NCBI GenBank assembly: GCA_036388415.1
Contig: DASVRW010000001.1
Span: forward strand, 1 to 41,738
DNA: 41,738 nucleotides
Reading direction: 5' to 3'
Source: Candidatus Saccharimonadales bacterium
GTDB taxonomy: Bacteria; Patescibacteriota; Saccharimonadia; Saccharimonadales; UBA4665
The notes under the pieces were generated by a model. The model saw only the letters and a list, made by a program, of their open reading frames with translations. It searched no databases and had not been told where the DNA came from. Of this stretch, positions 12,718-36,038 are shown in pieces (positions within the stretch are counted from its first letter, which is position 1; each line of letters begins with the position of its first letter). Both the position numbers and the translations under genes were made by a program.

Positions 12718-14826
12718 TTACAACAGGTTGATCGGGTCAATATCATAATTCCAGCCGGATTTGGGCAGGATTTTGATGACATCGAGCAGGGCGGGCCGCT
12801 GCTTCGATTTAAGGATCAGCTGCCACTCGAATTTGTCGCCAGCTTTGCCATGGAATGATGGCATCGGGCCTTCGACGATGAGTGGCAATTTCAGATCTTG
12901 GATTACGTCATAAAATTTTTCGGATGCTTTTTCGGCGGATGCACTGGTGGCACGCCGGCAGGTCAGCTTGAGTAGGTAACAAAACGGCGGAAAATTGAAC
13001 ATTTTGCGCTCGGCAAGCTCGCTGGCATAAAATGTATCCCAATCGCGGACCAGAGCAGCGGTAATCACCGGGCGCTCGGGCGCATATGACTGTACAACGA
13101 TACGTTGCCGCGCCAGGTGGCCACGCCCAACTCGCCCAATGACTTGCGCCAGCAGCTGATAGGTGCGCTCTTCGGCGGAATAATCCGGAAACGTCAGCGA
13201 CGTGTCAGCGATAATGACACCGAGCGTGCTCAGGCGGGGCAGGTCCAGACCCTTAGCCAGTAACTGCGTGCCGACGAGGATATCGACATCACCGGCCTTG
13301 ACGGCTTCGTAGTGTTGCTCAAAGCGCTCAGACTTTTTATTGTCGGTGTCGAATCGCATCACCCGGGCACTTGGATACAGCCGACGGACTTCTTCCTCGA
13401 TTGCCTTGGTGCCGACCACCTTGAAGACGACATCGGCATTGCCGCAGTCCGGGCATGATGTTGGCGTGGCTTGTTTGAAACCGCAGGTGTGACACTGCAG
13501 TATATGTAGATCATGATGATAAGTGAGCGGCAGGTCGCAGTGCGGACAGACAGCTTGCCAGCCACAGGTATTGCACAGGATAACGCGGGCCGTCCCGCGG
13601 CGGTTGAGATACAGCAGGCTCTGTTCGCCGCGCTGCAGGCTGGCATGGATGGCTTTGATGAGCGCGCTCGAGATATACTGTGAGCGCCCAAATGCGGCGC
13701 GGTCTTTGAGGTCGACGACTTCCGTCAAAACGCTATTTTCGGCAGATGCGATATGCGCGTTTTGTAGGCCCATGTGCTGCATAGGCGCGGATTCAGAAAT
13801 TGAATCGAGAGGGTAGCTAGCGCCACGAGCTGACCCCTCGGAAGATCCGAGGCGGTCACTCGTAGAGCGCACTCGAGAGGCAGTTTCTGAATCCGCAATC
13901 CCGCTTCCGACCGCCATCTGCCGCATGCGGAGTATTTTCTTATGCTTCTGCTCGGCGATATAGTAATCATTTATCGGCGGCGTAGCCGAGCCAAGTATCA
14001 GCGTCGCTGCGTGGGCCTGCGCCAGCTGCGAGGCGACGCGGACGGCGTGATAGTGCGGCGCTTGCTCATGCTTGTATGACGGTTCGTGCGATTCGTCGAC
14101 GACGATCAGCCCGACGCGTGCCAGCGGGCTGAATAACGCCGAGCGCGGCCCGAGCACGATCAGCGGCGTCGTGCTCTTGATGATCTGTAGCCAGGTCTGC
14201 TGTCGGGCTTTGGGCGTAAGCTGCGAATGGACGACAATGACGCGCTCGCCAAATACCGCCCGGAAGCTGGCTGCCAGCTGGGATGTCAGGCCTATTTCAG
14301 GCGTCAGAATAATCGCCGACGTACCGGCGTTGACGGCCCGGAGCGCCAGCTCGATGTAGACTCTGGTTTTCCCGGTGCCGGTGTCGCCGTGCAGCAGGTA
14401 CGTATCCGGTTGGTCTATGGCGTGCAGGGCAGCCGCCTGTTCGGCAGTTGGCGCTGGCAAGCCGACCGAGTGCATTGGAATGTCTTTGGTCGCACCAGCC
14501 GTTTCGGTGATTGTTTTGGGCGACAGGACGTTCGGTAAGATCTGCTGGGCTATCATGCCGAGCGGTGCCGGATAGTAGTCCCGCAGCCATGCCGTCAGAT
14601 CGACAAGAGGACTCGGTAAGGGTGGAATGTCGAAGACTTCGAGTATATTGCGGGTCGTGAAGCGCGGTTTGCCGACCGAGCCGGTTATAACGCCCAGCAC
14701 AGCCTGCTTCTGCATCGGCACCAGTACGACGCTGCAAAGGGCGATTTTATCAGGTGAGGCGTAAGTTAACGCTTCGTTGCCATGGTATTGAGCGCTCGAC
14801 ACGAGCACGGTGTAGTAATAGCTCAC
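12718..14826 (-). CDS. priA: Primosomal protein N' (PriA helicase) with in-frame insertion
   Basis: 702 residues. An N-terminal DNA-binding region is followed by a superfamily 2 helicase: Walker A GDTGTGKT (147-154), DEAH-type box VVDESH (242-247) and motif III LGSATP (278-283). Eight cysteines in CxxC pairs (418/421, 427/430, 445/448, 458/461) bind two zincs. The C-terminal helicase motif QVIGRVGRG follows. PriA restarts stalled replication forks. Between motif III and the DLKDR strand, residues about 304-370 are far longer than usual; residues 311-347 are encoded by a 110-bp palindromic element. The start is GTG 14826, 6 nt after a minus-strand TATACT. The frame stays open through the insertion, so the gene looks functional. 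Confidence 0.95.
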   Translation of the reverse strand: MSYYYTVLVSSAQYHGNEALTYASPDKIALCSVVLVPMQKQAVLGVITGSVGKPRFTTRNILEVFDIPPLPSPLVDLTAWLRDYYPAPLGMIAQQILPNVLSPKTITETAGATKDIPMHSVGLPAPTAEQAAALHAIDQPDTYLLHGDTGTGKTRVYIELALRAVNAGTSAIILTPEIGLTSQLAASFRAVFGERVIVVHSQLTPKARQQTWLQIIKSTTPLIVLGPRSALFSPLARVGLIVVDESHEPSYKHEQAPHYHAVRVASQLAQAHAATLILGSATPPINDYYIAEQKHKKILRMRQMAVGSGIADSETASRVRSTSDRLGSSEGSARGASYPLDSISESAPMQHMGLQNAHIASAENSVLTEVVDLKDRAAFGRSQYISSALIKAIHASLQRGEQSLLYLNRRGTARVILCNTCGWQAVCPHCDLPLTYHHDLHILQCHTCGFKQATPTSCPDCGNADVVFKVVGTKAIEEEVRRLYPSARVMRFDTDNKKSERFEQHYEAVKAGDVDILVGTQLLAKGLDLPRLSTLGVIIADTSLTFPDYSAEERTYQLLAQVIGRVGRGHLARQRIVVQSYAPERPVITAALVRDWDTFYASELAERKMFNFPPFCYLLKLTCRRATSASAEKASEKFYDVIQDLKLPLIVEGPMPSFHGKAGDKFEWQLILKSKQRPALLDVIKILPKSGWNYDIDPINLL
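13787..13896 (-). repeat. Palindromic element inserted in frame in priA
   Basis: A 110-bp stretch whose ends are a perfect 13-bp inverted repeat, GCGGATTCAGAAA (13787-13799) / TTTCTGAATCCGC (13884-13896). The interior keeps pairing toward the centre: TCGAG/CTCGA, GCGC/GCGC, CTACGAG/CTCGTGG (minus strand), TGACC/GGTCA, and a central CCTCGG (13836-13841) / CCGAGG (13847-13852). The whole element can fold into one long imperfect hairpin. It encodes residues 311-347 of PriA, a Ser/Ala/Arg-rich loop, without breaking the frame. No second copy was seen in the window. Confidence 0.72.
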
Positions 14827-25832: not shown

Positions 25833-26903
25833 ATGGTACGTGCGGTACGAACTCTAACGGGCAAGAGTAAAAGGGTAATTGTAATGACGGTGATAGCGCT
25901 GGCTGTAGGCGTAGGTGGAAGCATTGCCTCCTTGCAGTCGCATGCGGAAACGCCATTTGCAACTGCGGAACCAGAAAATGGTACGCTGAGCGCTCCGGCA
26001 GTGGCCGTAAATGACGCGGCTGCTTCCAACGGCAAAGCAGTGCAGTTTGCGGTAGGCAGTGCTCCAGGTGCATGTAATGGCGCCCTCAATACGCCGGGCG
26101 GCCCCGACAGTGCCGGCGTCTGTTGGCCGGCAGCCTATAACACTGGCTATCCGCGCGGACTGCCAGGCGATACGCGTACGCCAGTGACTCTGACGCCGTA
26201 CACTGGGCTCTGTGATATCCGAACTGACAATCTAGTCATCGATTCTAAACTGTTAAACTGCGGCGGCATGTTGGTATATGCCCGTAATGTGACGATTAAG
26301 AACAGCAAAATTGTCGGGCATATCTTTACAAACTCTGCCACTGCCAGCCTGACGCTGATCGATACCGAAGTCGATGGCGGCTCTGGCCATGCGCGGTCGA
26401 TTGGGGTTAATAACGTTACCTTGCTGCGGGTGAATGTCTACGGCAACCAGCATACATTACAGTGTAGTGAAAATTGCACCGCGACAGATTCCTACATGCA
26501 CGACCAATATCCTGGTGGCCGTGACTTAGGATGGCATCAGAACAGTTTCCTGACAAACGGTGGCTCAAATCTCAATATGATCCACAACACTATGGGTTGC
26601 ACTGGTGGCTGTACTGCAGTTATTGGGCTTATACCTGACTACAATATATCTGGGTTTACTGCTGACCATAATCTGATCGTTGCCTCGCCAGACAGTAGCT
26701 ATTGTCTATACGGCGGCGGTAACTCTGGCAATAAACCAGGCGTTGCCAGTTCTATTGTATTTCGCAACAACGTTGTCCAGCGCGGTGCCAATGGCAAATG
26801 TGGCGCCTACGGACCAGTAACCTACTTCAACCCAAACTCACCTGGCAACCAGTGGGTTAACAATACCTGGTCAGATGGCAGTGTCCTGCCGTCAGCTAAT
26901 TAG
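25833..26903 (+). CDS. Exported right-handed beta-helix protein 1
   Basis: 356 residues. A basic start and hydrophobic span (about 14-34) form a signal anchor. Residues 38-73 are the shared juxtamembrane module (TPFATAEPENGTLSAP ... DAAASNGKAVQF) also found in three other exported proteins here. From about 130 to 345 come repeated short strands with Asn and hydrophobic ladders (VTIKNSKIVGHIFT, LTLIDTEVDGG, VTLLRVNVYGN, LNMIHNTMGC), typical of pectin-lyase-like parallel beta-helices. Several cysteines may form disulfides. No catalytic residues of polysaccharide lyases can be assigned; it may bind or cleave glycans. An AAGGTG Shine-Dalgarno lies 8 nt before the ATG. Protein 2 follows after 5 nt, so the two share an operon. 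Confidence 0.85.
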   Translation: MVRAVRTLTGKSKRVIVMTVIALAVGVGGSIASLQSHAETPFATAEPENGTLSAPAVAVNDAAASNGKAVQFAVGSAPGACNGALNTPGGPDSAGVCWPAAYNTGYPRGLPGDTRTPVTLTPYTGLCDIRTDNLVIDSKLLNCGGMLVYARNVTIKNSKIVGHIFTNSATASLTLIDTEVDGGSGHARSIGVNNVTLLRVNVYGNQHTLQCSENCTATDSYMHDQYPGGRDLGWHQNSFLTNGGSNLNMIHNTMGCTGGCTAVIGLIPDYNISGFTADHNLIVASPDSSYCLYGGGNSGNKPGVASSIVFRNNVVQRGANGKCGAYGPVTYFNPNSPGNQWVNNTWSDGSVLPSAN

Positions 26904-29728: not shown

Positions 29729-32700
29729 ATGAAATTTCAAAAAAACAGCCGCCGCCGGGCGAATGAGTACGAAAAGGATCTGATCCAGTATTGGAAAGAC
29801 AACAAAACATTCGAAAAATCAGTTGAGCAGCGCCCGGCTGATAATGCCTATGTCTTTTATGACGGGCCACCGTTTATTACCGGTGTCCCGCACCACGGAA
29901 CGCTGTTGTCGAGCATCGCCAAGGATGTCGTGCCGCGATACTGGACAATGAAAGGCAAGCGCGTCGAACGGGTATGGGGTTGGGATTGCCACGGCCTGCC
30001 AGCAGAAGTGTTTACTGAGAAGAAACTAGGCATAGCTGACCGCCGCGACATCGGAACCAAAGTTAGCCTTGAAGATTACATCAATACCTGCCGTGAGAAC
30101 ATGGTACAGACAGGCAGCTTGTGGGAAGACACCATCGAACGTATCGGCCGCTGGGTCGACTTCAAGGGTGCGTACAAAACCATGGATAAAGACTACATGG
30201 AATCAGTCTGGTGGGCCTTCAAACAGCTCTATGACAAAGGCAAAATCTACGAAGGCGAGAAAGTGCTGTTGTATTGCACCCGCGATGCCACGCCGATATC
30301 AAAGGCGGAAGTTGCCATGGACAATAGCTACCAGGATGTGACTGATCCGTCGGTGTTTGTGAAATTCAAGCTGACAGGCGGGTTAGGCACGGAAACTAAA
30401 GGTGAAGCAGCAGAGCAGGTAGTTCAGCAATCCGATGCGGACACGTTTCTGCTCGCTTGGACAACGACGCCGTGGACATTGCCCGCCAACACTGCTGTTG
30501 CAGTCAATGCTCATGTGCAATATGCCGAGATTGAGGTCGACGGACAGAACCTAATCCTAGCCGAAAGCTTACTTGCCAAAGTGCTGACCGACGAAAAACA
30601 TCAGCCAGTTCCATACACGCTCAAGCGGACATTGAAAGGTGAAGAGCTGGTCGGTATGTCATACGAGCCGTTATTCGAAGACCGTAATACACCGGATAAT
30701 ATGCAAGCGCACAAAGTCTGGCATGCCGATTATGTTTCGACGGAGGACGGTACTGGTATCGTCCACTTGGCGCCAGCCTACGGTGAAGAGGATTATGTTT
30801 TGTCCCAAGAAAAGGGCTTTCCGTTTGTCATAAATATTGATGACAACGGCTTCTTTAAAGATGGCGAATGGGTAGGTCAAAATGTCTGGGAAGCCAACAA
30901 GCCAATCGCCAAAACGCTGAAGGAACGCGGTGTTGTATACAAAATTGAGTACATCAAACACAGTTATCCGCACTGTCACCGCTGCGGCACCAAACTGATG
31001 TACCGCGCTCACCCCAGCTGGTTTATGGACATCGTCGGCGAAAAAGATAAGATGCTGGAAGAAAACGAAAATATCAATTGGTTTCCGGAGCATCTCAAGC
31101 ACGGCCGATTCCAAAAGACCGTTGAAACAGCACCGGATTGGAACCTCAGCCGTGACCGCTTTTGGGCGACGGCTATGCCGGTGTGGAAGGGTACAGATGC
31201 AGACGGCAGGGAACTGGTAAAAGTAGTCGGCAGCTATGCTGAGCTAAAGGAACTGAGCGGTGAAGAATTGGCTGATTATCACCGGCCGTGGATTGATGAT
31301 ATCGAGTTCGACTACGACGGGGTACACTACACACGGATCGACAAAGTACTTGATTGCTGGTTCGAAAGCGGCAGCATGCCGTTCGCGCAGTTCCACTATC
31401 CGTTTGAAAATGTAGAAAAATTTGAGAACAATTTCCCCGGTGATTTCATCGTGGAGTACGTCGGTCAGGTCCGGGCCTGGTTCTATTATGTGCACGCGGT
31501 AAATACTGCGTTGTTCGGACATAATGCCTACAAGAATGTCATCACGACCGGTACACTGGCTGGCAATGACGGCCGCAAGATGAGCAAATCGTTCGGAAAT
31601 TACACAGATCCGAACGAGTTGATGGACCAGTACAGTGCTGACAGCCTACGCTTCCTACTGATGAGCAGCCCGCTCATGAACGCCGAAGATTTTGCGCTGG
31701 TCGACAAAGACGTTGCTGATGTGGCCCGCAAGCTCAGTATGGTCTGGAATATGTACGATTTCTTTACGCTGTATGCTGAGGTTGACGGTTGGGAATCGCC
31801 GGATGCGGCTCACGGTTTGTATGACGATCCCCTCGACGCGCTCAGTAATCCGCTCGACAGGTGGATTGTATCGCGCGTCCATCAATTGACGGCAGAAGTC
31901 TCAGACAATATGGAGCGTTACGATGTGCCGAATGCTGCCAAGCCGATATTGCCGTTTCTGGATGACGCCAGCAACTGGTATGTCCGCCGCAGCCGTCGCC
32001 GGTTCTGGAAGTCATCTGTAGATGGAGCGGACGGCACGGACAGCGACAAGCAGGATGCGTACCGCACACTGCACTACGTCCTGGTGCGACTCGCGCATGT
32101 TTTAGCGCCGTTCACGCCGTTCCTGGCGGAAGAACTGTTCCACAAGCTGACAGGTGAGGAATCGGTGCATCTGCGTGACTGGCCGGAGACGGGGAAGATT
32201 GATACGGCTGTACTGTTTCAAATGAAGCGGGTACGGGAAGTGATTAATGAAGGTCTCTCGCAACGTGCCACCGCAAAAATTAAAGTTCGTCAGCCACTTA
32301 GTCAGGTTAGTATCGTTGATGATACGAAATGGACGACTGACGAGCTGACGGCCATCATTGCCGAGGAGCTTAATGTCAAAAATGTTGAGGTGCGACTACG
32401 TCCGAGCGCCGACGATGTAGAATCAAAATCCTTTGTCGAGCTTTGGGAAGAACGCAACGATGGACCGCCCAAAGTCGAAGTCGATATGACACTAACTCCT
32501 GATCTCAAGCGCGAAGGTCAAGTCCGTGAAGTCATCCGCCAGGTGCAGAATGCCCGCAAGCAAGCTGGACTGAATGTCGACGATCGCATCCGTCTGGAAC
32601 TCGTCACGCATGACGATGAGCTAAAGCAGGCAATCGCCGAGCATGTGGCCACGATTCAGTCGGAGACGCTGGCAACCGAGCTGCAGACGGATGGTAGCGA

Positions 32701-32854: not shown

Positions 32855-35224
32855 ATGCCCTCCGATACTCATGCCATGCTCCGACGCGTACGGCATTTGA
32901 TATTTGGAATACTCATAATTTTGGCGCTTACAATACCCCTGATTATTCAGGGTGGTAGGGCCGATGTGCGAATTTTTGATATCGGTTTTAATCCGTATGC
33001 GTTGCTTTCATTCAGCGGATGTATGCTTAACGTTGCATTTCTCATATATATCCGTACCCTCAAACTCCAGGGAGACGAAGCGACATGGCTAACGTTTTGT
33101 ATCGGTGCAGTTAGTGTTTTCGGGTTCGCCGAGACAATGCAGCGGCTTTCATTGACGATTGACGGTGCAATGTTTTGGGCAACGATGGGCGGTGTAGCCA
33201 CAGAAGTAATACCGGTAGCCACATTCTTATTCGCGCTTGCATATACCCGGCCGACGTCTTGGTATTCGAGCAAAGTCGCATACATACTGCTGGCAACGAT
33301 GCTCATGATCTTCTATCAGGCTAGTAGTACTGACCTGATATTTTTCACGGATCCTGGCCATGTCATGCAGTACTCATGGGGCTTTAATAATGAAATTGGT
33401 GATGCGTATATAGCGCAAGCCATATGGCAATTAGTGTTTTTTGGGGCCGCTTTTTGGCTGTTGCTGCATCTATATCGCACGACTACGAATACTGTTATCA
33501 AAAAACAGTCCATGCTATTTTTGGTTGCCATCGGTGTACCTGTTATCGGCGGTATGATTACCGATCTAGTATTGCCGGCTCTGTATATCACGACATTGCC
33601 GCCGCTGGCTACCTTCTTTAGTGTTGTTACTGCCGCTGGCCTTGTCTATGGAATTGCACGTTACCGGGTCTTGCGGGTTAGTCCGTCGCTGCTTGCACAC
33701 AATATTCTGTCAGCCATGCATGAGGCCGTCATTGCGACCAACGATCAATCAGAAATTGAGTACATGAACGCCGAAGCTGAGAAAATTTTTGGCCGTCAGA
33801 CGACACGCCCGATAATATTTCGTTTATTCGACCAGTTCGACAATGATGGGTTTGACGCAAATATTATAAAGTTGCAGCAAGGCGAAACCTATACTTTGGA
33901 TAACCTGACGGTTACGGACCAGGAGTCTAAAAAGGTATACATGCAGGCTCAAGTGTCCAAACTGCACAGCGATAGTCTGATCGAAGGCTATTTGTTTGTT
34001 TTGTCTGATGTCACAGAACTGAAGCAGTCGTATAAAGCACTCGAGGCTGCCGACACAAAACTTATTCACGAAAAACAAAATGTTGAACGCAAGGTACATG
34101 AGCGTACTCAGGAGCTGACTGAACAACGGGCGCGGCTTGAGGCTTCCATCAACAGTCTGAACGCCGGGTATCTGATGACCGATCGCACGAATAATATATT
34201 AATTATGAATGGAGCTGCGCAGCATATGCTGTTCGGTCGAACTGACGCAGCGACTAAGTATACGCTCGAAGACATTGCAAAAATCTTTGGTACGGACTTT
34301 CAGTTTGTACGATCAGTTGAAGCCTGTCTGGAAAACGACAGGCCTATCGTCACGGACGCTGTTCTGCAAAACGGTAAAATGCTAAAAGTATTTTTGGCGC
34401 CGATTAGCGATACGACAGTTGAGACAGATCAAAAACTCGGAGTCGTAGTGCTTATCGAAGATATCACCGAGGCCAAGGTGCTTGAACGCAGCCGGGAAGA
34501 ATTCTTCTCGATTGCATCGCACGAACTCCGTACGCCGCTCACGGCTATTCGCGGCAATGCCTCCATGATCAAGCAGTTTTATGCTGCGCAGCTGCAGGAC
34601 ACGGAACTGCATCAAATGGTTGATGATATTGAGATATCAAGCGTCCGTCTCATTGAAATTGTCAATGATTTCCTGGATGCTTCGCGCTTAGAGCAGGGGA
34701 AAATACAATTTCACTCTGAGGCTTTCCGGATTGAGGAAATTCTTGAGAATGTCGTATATGAAATGAGCGCGCTTGCGAGTCAGAAACACACGCATATACA
34801 GATCGATAAGACGCTTCACGCAACATCGCTTGTGTATGCTGACAAGAACCGTGTAAAACAAGTGATATACAACCTTGTTGGCAATGCTATGAAATTTACC
34901 GATAAGGGAGCGATTACCATTACGGTAGAACCGGCAGCCGCTTCGCTGAAAGTCAAAATAACTGATACAGGACCCGGTATATCAAAAGAAAACCAAAACT
35001 TGCTTTTCCGTAAGTTCCAGCAAGCTGGCAATAGTCTCCTGACGCGTGAGACAAGCCGTGGTACGGGACTCGGGCTCTATATATCAAAGCTCCTGATTGA
35101 CGGTATGGGCGGCAAAATGGCCTTAGAGCGATCGGAAGTCGGCAGAGGATCCACGTTCTCGTTTACGGTACCGCTTGCGACGCAGGCTCAGATCGATGCA
35201 CCTTTAGCCACGAAACAGCTGTAG
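32855..35224 (+). CDS. Membrane sensor histidine kinase (7TM, two PAS, HisKA, HATPase)
   Basis: 789 residues. The N-terminal part (about 10-270) has some seven membrane spans, resembling the 7TM region of histidine kinases. PAS domain 1 spans about 275-390 (EAVIATNDQSEIEYMNAEAEKIFG) and is followed by a coiled coil (about 385-430). PAS domain 2 spans about 430-540. The HisKA domain has the H-box FFSIASHELRTPLTAIRG with phospho-acceptor His556. The HATPase domain has the N-box (NRVKQVIYNLVGNAMKF), G1 (DTGPGIS) and G2 (GTGLGLYIS). It should sense a membrane or intracellular signal and phosphorylate a response regulator, but none is adjacent, so it is an orphan kinase. No Shine-Dalgarno is visible. 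Confidence 0.92.
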   Translation: MPSDTHAMLRRVRHLIFGILIILALTIPLIIQGGRADVRIFDIGFNPYALLSFSGCMLNVAFLIYIRTLKLQGDEATWLTFCIGAVSVFGFAETMQRLSLTIDGAMFWATMGGVATEVIPVATFLFALAYTRPTSWYSSKVAYILLATMLMIFYQASSTDLIFFTDPGHVMQYSWGFNNEIGDAYIAQAIWQLVFFGAAFWLLLHLYRTTTNTVIKKQSMLFLVAIGVPVIGGMITDLVLPALYITTLPPLATFFSVVTAAGLVYGIARYRVLRVSPSLLAHNILSAMHEAVIATNDQSEIEYMNAEAEKIFGRQTTRPIIFRLFDQFDNDGFDANIIKLQQGETYTLDNLTVTDQESKKVYMQAQVSKLHSDSLIEGYLFVLSDVTELKQSYKALEAADTKLIHEKQNVERKVHERTQELTEQRARLEASINSLNAGYLMTDRTNNILIMNGAAQHMLFGRTDAATKYTLEDIAKIFGTDFQFVRSVEACLENDRPIVTDAVLQNGKMLKVFLAPISDTTVETDQKLGVVVLIEDITEAKVLERSREEFFSIASHELRTPLTAIRGNASMIKQFYAAQLQDTELHQMVDDIEISSVRLIEIVNDFLDASRLEQGKIQFHSEAFRIEEILENVVYEMSALASQKHTHIQIDKTLHATSLVYADKNRVKQVIYNLVGNAMKFTDKGAITITVEPAAASLKVKITDTGPGISKENQNLLFRKFQQAGNSLLTRETSRGTGLGLYISKLLIDGMGGKMALERSEVGRGSTFSFTVPLATQAQIDAPLATKQL

Positions 35225-35700: not shown

Positions 35701-36038
35701 TCATAAAGCTGCCGCGCCAGCCCGTATCCGCTGTGACCACCTGTGGAAAAACATCGCAGCATATATTAGGTAATAATTACTTATAATAAATACAACATAA
35801 ATAATACAACCAAATTTCATATATTTGAAAATATTAGGAATTAGCATCTGTAGATATACCATTTGGTTGTTTTTACAACTATTCAATGTATACCTTTGAC
35901 TATATCACGTATGGATTATGATATTTGCCCAATAAACATTAGGGTTGTATCTGTTATCAGCATGCTTCAAAATAGTACATAAGCTTATTAGTCGCTTTAC
36001 ATAGCGACTTCAGCTAAAACCAAAAACATTATAAACAA
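35701..36038 (+). other. A/T-rich intergenic region upstream of the giant surface protein
   Basis: No gene is credible. It holds a spaced inverted repeat ACAACCAAAT (35806-35815) / ATTTGGTTGT (35861-35870) followed by TTTT. A possible promoter is TTGACT (35896-35901), 15 bp, TATGAT (35917-35922). A leader hairpin AGTCGC (35990-35995) / GCGACT (36004-36009) lies just before the duplicated 5' segment. Confidence 0.6.

Follow-up and report, generated by a model that had tools for sequence, protein, structure and literature searches.

The palindrome within the priA gene of this Candidatus Saccharimonadales genome belongs to a family of small hairpin elements, mobile in the past and not listed before, which occurs in Saccharibacteria and in a few other ultra-small bacteria. 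We put the probability at about three in four that the priA segment goes back to an old and since fixed insertion from a miniature palindromic transposable family of Patescibacteria, one that was moved by IS4-type transposition and thereafter retained as a hairpin. The first-pass annotation had likened the segment to the Rickettsia palindromic elements (RPEs), and this reading is largely right and partly supported, with corrections that concern where the copies lie, how they are maintained, and their MITE-type ends. Saccharimonadales do contain a palindromic family that behaves like RPEs, is of MITE type and shares a conserved, structured core.

The palindrome in priA

In the window, i.e., the whole 41.7-kb stretch of DNA analysed (41,738 nucleotides), the priA palindrome is the longest close inverted repeat. 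Its arms (13787-13811 and 13872-13896) have 25 nt each; they are complementary at 80% of the positions and without a mismatch over the outer 13 bp. Folded as RNA it reaches -64 kcal/mol, to be compared with -41.2 ± 4.0 for 200 dinucleotide shuffles, none of which is as good (z = -5.67). Inverted repeat and fold together confirm the palindrome with perfect 13-bp ends that had been described at 13787-13896. The hairpin covariance models introduced below score the copy at 101.7 bits (R1) and 82.8 bits (R2) (span 13794-13889), and its anatomy is given in Table 1. Four other inverted repeats in the window (35803-35873, 26143-26166, 32587-32693 and 34488-34515), all imperfect and with arms of 17-20 nt, do not match the element model. 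Rfam gives nothing in the window at gathering scores, and nothing over the element, at eight loci, at E ≤ 5.

Table 1. Parts of the priA palindrome and of its host gene, in window coordinates
Feature	Position	Strand	Basis and remarks
Whole palindromic element	13787..13896	+ (modelled strand; antisense to priA)	Inverted repeat, fold, R1 and R2 scores
P1 outer arm, left	13787..13802	+	16 bp with 13881-13896; fold pairing; covaries over 63 copies
P1 outer arm, right	13881..13896	+	Same basis as left P1 arm
Internal loop 1, AATCGA	13803..13808	+	Opposite GAGAGG 13875-13880; unpaired columns conserved across family alignments
P2, GAG	13809..13811	+	Pairs with CTC 13872-13874; covaries
Bulge, GGTAGCTA	13812..13819	+	Conserved; family consensus GGTnGCnA, from column counts
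P3, GCGC	13820..13823	+	Pairs with GCGC 13867-13870; weakest helix, 86% paired
Internal loop 2, CA	13824..13825	+	Opposite TAGA 13863-13866; columns near-invariant; family CA/TARA
P4 CGAG, bulged C, P5 TGACC	13826..13835	+	Pair with 13854-13862; P4 and P5 covary
Terminal hairpin	13836..13853	+	Variable; length and sequence differ among copies
priA, insertion host	12718..14826	-	702 aa; ORF open throughout; expected PriA domains
Extra coding segment of priA, residues ~306-361	13744..13911	-	Split G001/G003/G004 protein matches, PriA alignment, 6dcr split

Where the window protein has about 56 extra residues, the PriA proteins of relatives have from 0 to about 14 in the protein alignment, and split matches and alignment place a related insert only in the window genome (G000) and in its congener G002. 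Residues 311-347, taken earlier as the translated palindrome, are absent from the PriA of relatives apart from this insert in G002; the interval fits the DNA palindrome roughly, while the extra protein segment is larger when measured against relatives. The solved PriA structure PDB 6dcr aligns to residue 305 and resumes at residue 369, and this break puts the insert in the linker that leads from the first helicase lobe to the second.

A long PriA loop of about 50 residues, unrelated in sequence, occurs at the same site, after GSATP, in G079 (L086). It was rejected as a copy of the element, since its DNA has no such palindrome, and it means either that the site accepts other insertions or that an old element has decayed there beyond recognition. 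Between the inserts of G000 and G002 the core identity is 85-93%, while the arms are not recognisably alike, and by sequence comparison the two are likely to share descent, with rewritten arms, rather than to stem from independent insertions. The target duplication that had been predicted for the borders of the priA copy is not visible, and the ends of the copy have no CTGACC; we infer that it descends from a form with transposon ends.

A dispersed hairpin family

When the 110-bp sequence is searched with BLASTN against the 1.14-Mb genome, on both strands, only the element itself is found. BLASTN alone would thus mislead to a single copy in the window genome, and a model of the hairpin is needed. 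Partial matches in the congener G002 and in more distant genomes revealed a common anatomy, in which the outer arms are unrelated between sites and complementary within each. Two hairpin covariance models were made, R1 and then R2, which was built on 26 sequences.

The hairpin model finds three copies in the window genome (priA, C2:81239 and C2:1028643). Across the 295 Saccharimonadales genomes searched it gives 78 matches, spread over 31 of them. Outside the order, three Patescibacteria genomes are positive at E ≤ 4e-6; the congeners G001, G003 and G004 have no match. The search of genome and relatives with a covariance model, proposed in the first-pass annotation, turns up two additional copies in this genome and many among the relatives, and the PriA of relatives is without the segment. 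This is not the outcome that the annotation had named as refuting, namely no other copies and the same loop conserved without palindromy. The elements are about 70-130 bp in size and have no transposase gene of their own, with up to six copies in genomes other than G117, which has 11. Named matches to the core pattern in GTDB genomes are Candidatus Saccharibacteria or Saccharimonadales MAGs, and viral contigs searched with the same pattern gave no match. Two core-pattern matches with weak model scores are treated as chance, one from an Acidobacteria record (L154), which does not fold into the element, and one from a Kaiserbacteria record (L159), which reads as ordinary hisA coding sequence. 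No published family of such a kind in Patescibacteria was found in open-licence full text.

These counts bear on whether the palindrome could have been born within priA as a local quasi-palindrome by template switching, with no mobile family behind it. Template switching can create and homogenise coding palindromes, as is discussed for nematomorph mitochondrial genes (PMC6649704), but here the same core is met at dozens of unrelated sites across many genera, more than a local event could account for, and such an origin is extremely improbable. Template switching, refuted for the origin, may contribute to the maintenance of the arms.

Genomic placement and in-frame copies

Among about 70 copies that were classified, nearly all lie in spacers between genes and four secure copies lie in genes. 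A dispersed palindromic family of Patescibacteria that has moved, and that enters unrelated proteins in frame at tolerated loops, is what the data bear out, but the spread through coding genes that had been proposed with it is not the main habit of the family. The in-frame copies, which have empty sites in relatives, concern three genes, priA (in two species), hisF and dus. In G088, HisF gains residues 135-171 from a copy, and in G179 a copy whose arms measure about 20 bp gives a Dus protein roughly residues 243-288. The frame most frequently open in the family, in 33 of 55 copies, is the antisense one (reading CGC-TCT-AC) in which the priA and hisF copies are translated. The linker between the helicase lobes of PriA would have tolerated the insert because the element has a stop-free frame.

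Left out of the coding count are a weak match in prfB (L022) and a copy that overlaps the start of an ORF (L046). An antisense orientation bias, apparent at first in a dozen tandem cases, came down to 24:16 as cases were added and is not claimed.

The genomic contexts are unrelated, and even congeners differ widely in how many copies they have and where these lie. Close inverted pairs, similar to BIME doublets and less than 70 bp apart, occur in G066 (L024, 1501-1583/1651-1732) and in G197 (L079, 1857-1935/1983-2054), and there is a third inverted pair in G092 (L020, 1501-1575/2423-2495). G002 and G088 have copies (L030/L039) between the two members of the same convergent gene pair, a valS-like tRNA synthetase and an XRE-type regulator, despite being two families apart; either the copy is very old or the site is a hot spot for insertion.

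Evidence for transposition

The family has been mobile recently in G117 and G078. The 11 copies in G117 are near-identical, fall into two subtypes of 107-108 bp, and are bounded by 20-bp terminal repeats (CTGACCCACAYGCACTTTTT or a near variant, and the complement). Nine of them are flanked by 9-bp direct repeats, of which eight are perfect and one agrees at 8/9. In G078, the 20-bp ends of the copy L017 are similar, and it too is flanked by a perfect 9-bp repeat. A 1120-bp insertion sequence in G021 has CTGACCCACCTGCACTTTAA ends similar to those in G117, together with a perfect 9-bp duplication, and it encodes a 336-aa ORF that scores above the cut-off for DDE_Tnp_1 (Pfam). The best NCBIfam models for this transposase are IS4, all below their cut-offs, and its sequence contains YYHRFEIEEVFKDAK, a candidate for the Y..R..E..K region of the IS4 type. 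An insertion sequence with similar ends and a 9-bp duplication makes the element a MITE, at least in that setting.

Several further elements in G021 carry CTGACCCACACTCACTTTTT ends, with contigs breaking inside them. At least 10 contig ends of G021 lie inside insertion sequences with such ends (L119, L124, L127, L130, L133, L135, L137, L139, L141 and L143), and the assembly is therefore broken by a multicopy IS4-like element.

Mobilisation of IS4 type is well supported for the G117, G078 and G021 lineages, and for the remaining copies we infer it. An IS4-type DDE transposase would have moved the elements in trans, the ancestor of the priA copy probably among them. The partner insertion sequence (G021) and the G117 copies belong to different genomes, the transposase was not found in the window genome, and most old copies are without shared recognisable ends. 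Relatives of the IS4-like transposase occur in 10 of 295 genomes, 2 of the 31 that are element-positive versus 8 of the 264 others, which is no useful association. Two MITEs with ends of the same type, L150 (1799-1920) in G078 and L152 (1894-2011) in G128, are not recognised by the model at their centre, and L152 has a 9-bp duplication. These centres either belong to a second MITE type or are cores that have diverged very far, from which it follows that terminal repeats and core need not share a single history.

Movement by RAYT, the Y1 tyrosine transposase, would make the family REP-like, as its palindromic, extragenic and multicopy character might suggest, but this is hardly credible: terminal repeats and 9-bp duplications fit DDE transposition, Y1_Tnp has no match in the window genome, G002, G066 or G088, and it is present in 3 of the 12 genomes that were element-positive in the first model search, against 24 of 99 overall.

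Conserved core, covarying stems and their maintenance

The family shares a structure that covaries. In a structure written by hand for five sequences, 100% of the cells are paired and 15 of the 24 pairs have double changes. In an alignment of 63 sequences, fitted to the model, 90.7% of the cells are paired, compared with 61.5% when it is shuffled and 32-45% when it is slid, and none of 500 shuffles reaches its 423 double-changed cells. The alignments A3 and A4 are model-fitted and A1 is not. Copies from many genera share the core and near-invariant internal loops, and their tips are variable. The ratio of G-U to A-C is 52:14 inside the modelled columns, which may be ascertainment, and 13:20 in the arms outside them. 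The excess of G-U over A-C, having vanished outside the modelled columns, is not claimed as a strand signal.

At the orthologous site L044/L045, the core is identical at 54 of 55 positions, the arms are 59-68% identical and the flanks 68-76%. When the 22 arm pairs are followed between the two copies, 13 are unchanged, 8 have changed on both sides and 1 has gone from mismatch to pair, while a change confined to one side, from one standard pair to another, does not occur. At L052/L054 the neighbouring coding DNA is mostly 83-100% identical and most loops do not differ in sequence; the outer arms agree at about half of their positions and are nevertheless complementary. These two copies (1501-1580 and 1501-1582) come from sister species and lie in the spacer just before a putative ATP synthase c-subunit gene.

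Paired change in the arms can be due to selection on the hairpin, to template-switch correction of the arms, or to both; template switching is discussed for the coding palindromes of nematomorph mitochondria (PMC6649704). Some selection is indicated by the conserved unpaired loops, since arm correction alone would erase them. Because the arms differ but stay paired, at orthologous sites as well, the element is not simply decaying selfish DNA, and the maintained core and stems suggest that a putative hairpin function has been retained. Once a copy is fixed, selection would keep the hairpin, perhaps as a transcript structure that forms an mRNA end or an RNase III processing site, and template-switch correction between the arms may be an alternative or an additional keeper.

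A more speculative and rather doubtful thought is that this is a structured-RNA family of Patescibacteria, dispersed by MITEs, with internal loops of specific (possibly catalytic or protein-binding) activity and with stems that change together, which persists even in priA. In a different account, the element would be primarily a structured RNA or a single-strand DNA hairpin with a cellular function, long retained at many loci, and G117 and G078 would show a secondary capture of this hairpin in the form of an IS4-type MITE. Such an account fits the presence of conserved unpaired loops in all copies, the near-identity of the L044/L045 core beside its diverged arms and flanks, the copies that related species keep in the same spacer and the valS-regulator copies of G002 and G088. 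It fits poorly with copy numbers and positions that vary even among congeners, three of which have no match, with the unrelated contexts and with an apparent strand signal that is gone outside the model, and we consider it unlikely. An IS4-moved element, later retained as a hairpin, remains the preferred reading.

Comparison with known systems

RPEs (Ogata et al. 2000, as reviewed) are dispersed elements of about 105-146 bp that form long hairpins (PMC2229807, PMC10969869). The priA element, with its 110 bp, is of similar size, and the two families have in common the long hairpin, the dispersal and the occurrence both between genes and in frame at tolerated sites of unrelated genes. They belong to different phyla and no sequence relation is claimed, so that the likeness is one of behaviour only and the Saccharimonadales element is not filed as an RPE. 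Target duplications of RPEs were listed as unknown in a 2007 review (PMC2229807), whereas recent copies here have 9-bp duplications and a candidate IS4-like partner. In R. conorii nearly half of the RPEs lie in ORFs (PMC10969869), as against about 4 of 70 copies in genes here. RPE repeats are reported to lose repeat identity with time (PMC6649704), whereas the arms here stay complementary and the structured core is conserved.

The MITEs Correia/NEMIS, RUP and ERIC are likewise small and non-autonomous, with terminal repeats, a target duplication and a partner insertion sequence; their transcripts are predicted to form long hairpins and some make in-frame fusions. The present family differs in its IS4-like partner, 9-bp duplication and CTGA ends, in its covarying core, conserved internal loops and spread over many genera, and in the absence of the terminal TA dinucleotide that is listed for most such MITEs (PMC2229807). 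REP/BIME elements with RAYT are also extragenic palindromes near gene ends, sometimes in inverted pairs, but the element here is longer, has terminal repeats and target duplications, and has no RAYT association. The coding palindromes of nematomorph mitochondria resemble it in being long inverted repeats in translated genes with arm complementarity kept. In the passages that describe them they overlap conserved protein regions and are not insertions, and a shared core or transposon ends go unmentioned there (PMC6649704).

Implications

RPEs, which are known from Rickettsiales, are the usual textbook case of selfish DNA adding new peptide to proteins, and the Saccharimonadales family supplies another case, independent of the first, from a phylum whose members are reduced and depend on hosts. 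Since its target duplications are visible, a transposase is proposed and relatives have empty sites, the origin, framing and retention of such insertions become testable. A conserved core together with stems that change but stay paired gives, furthermore, a way to separate selection on a hairpin from template-switch correction, two processes that are usually confounded.
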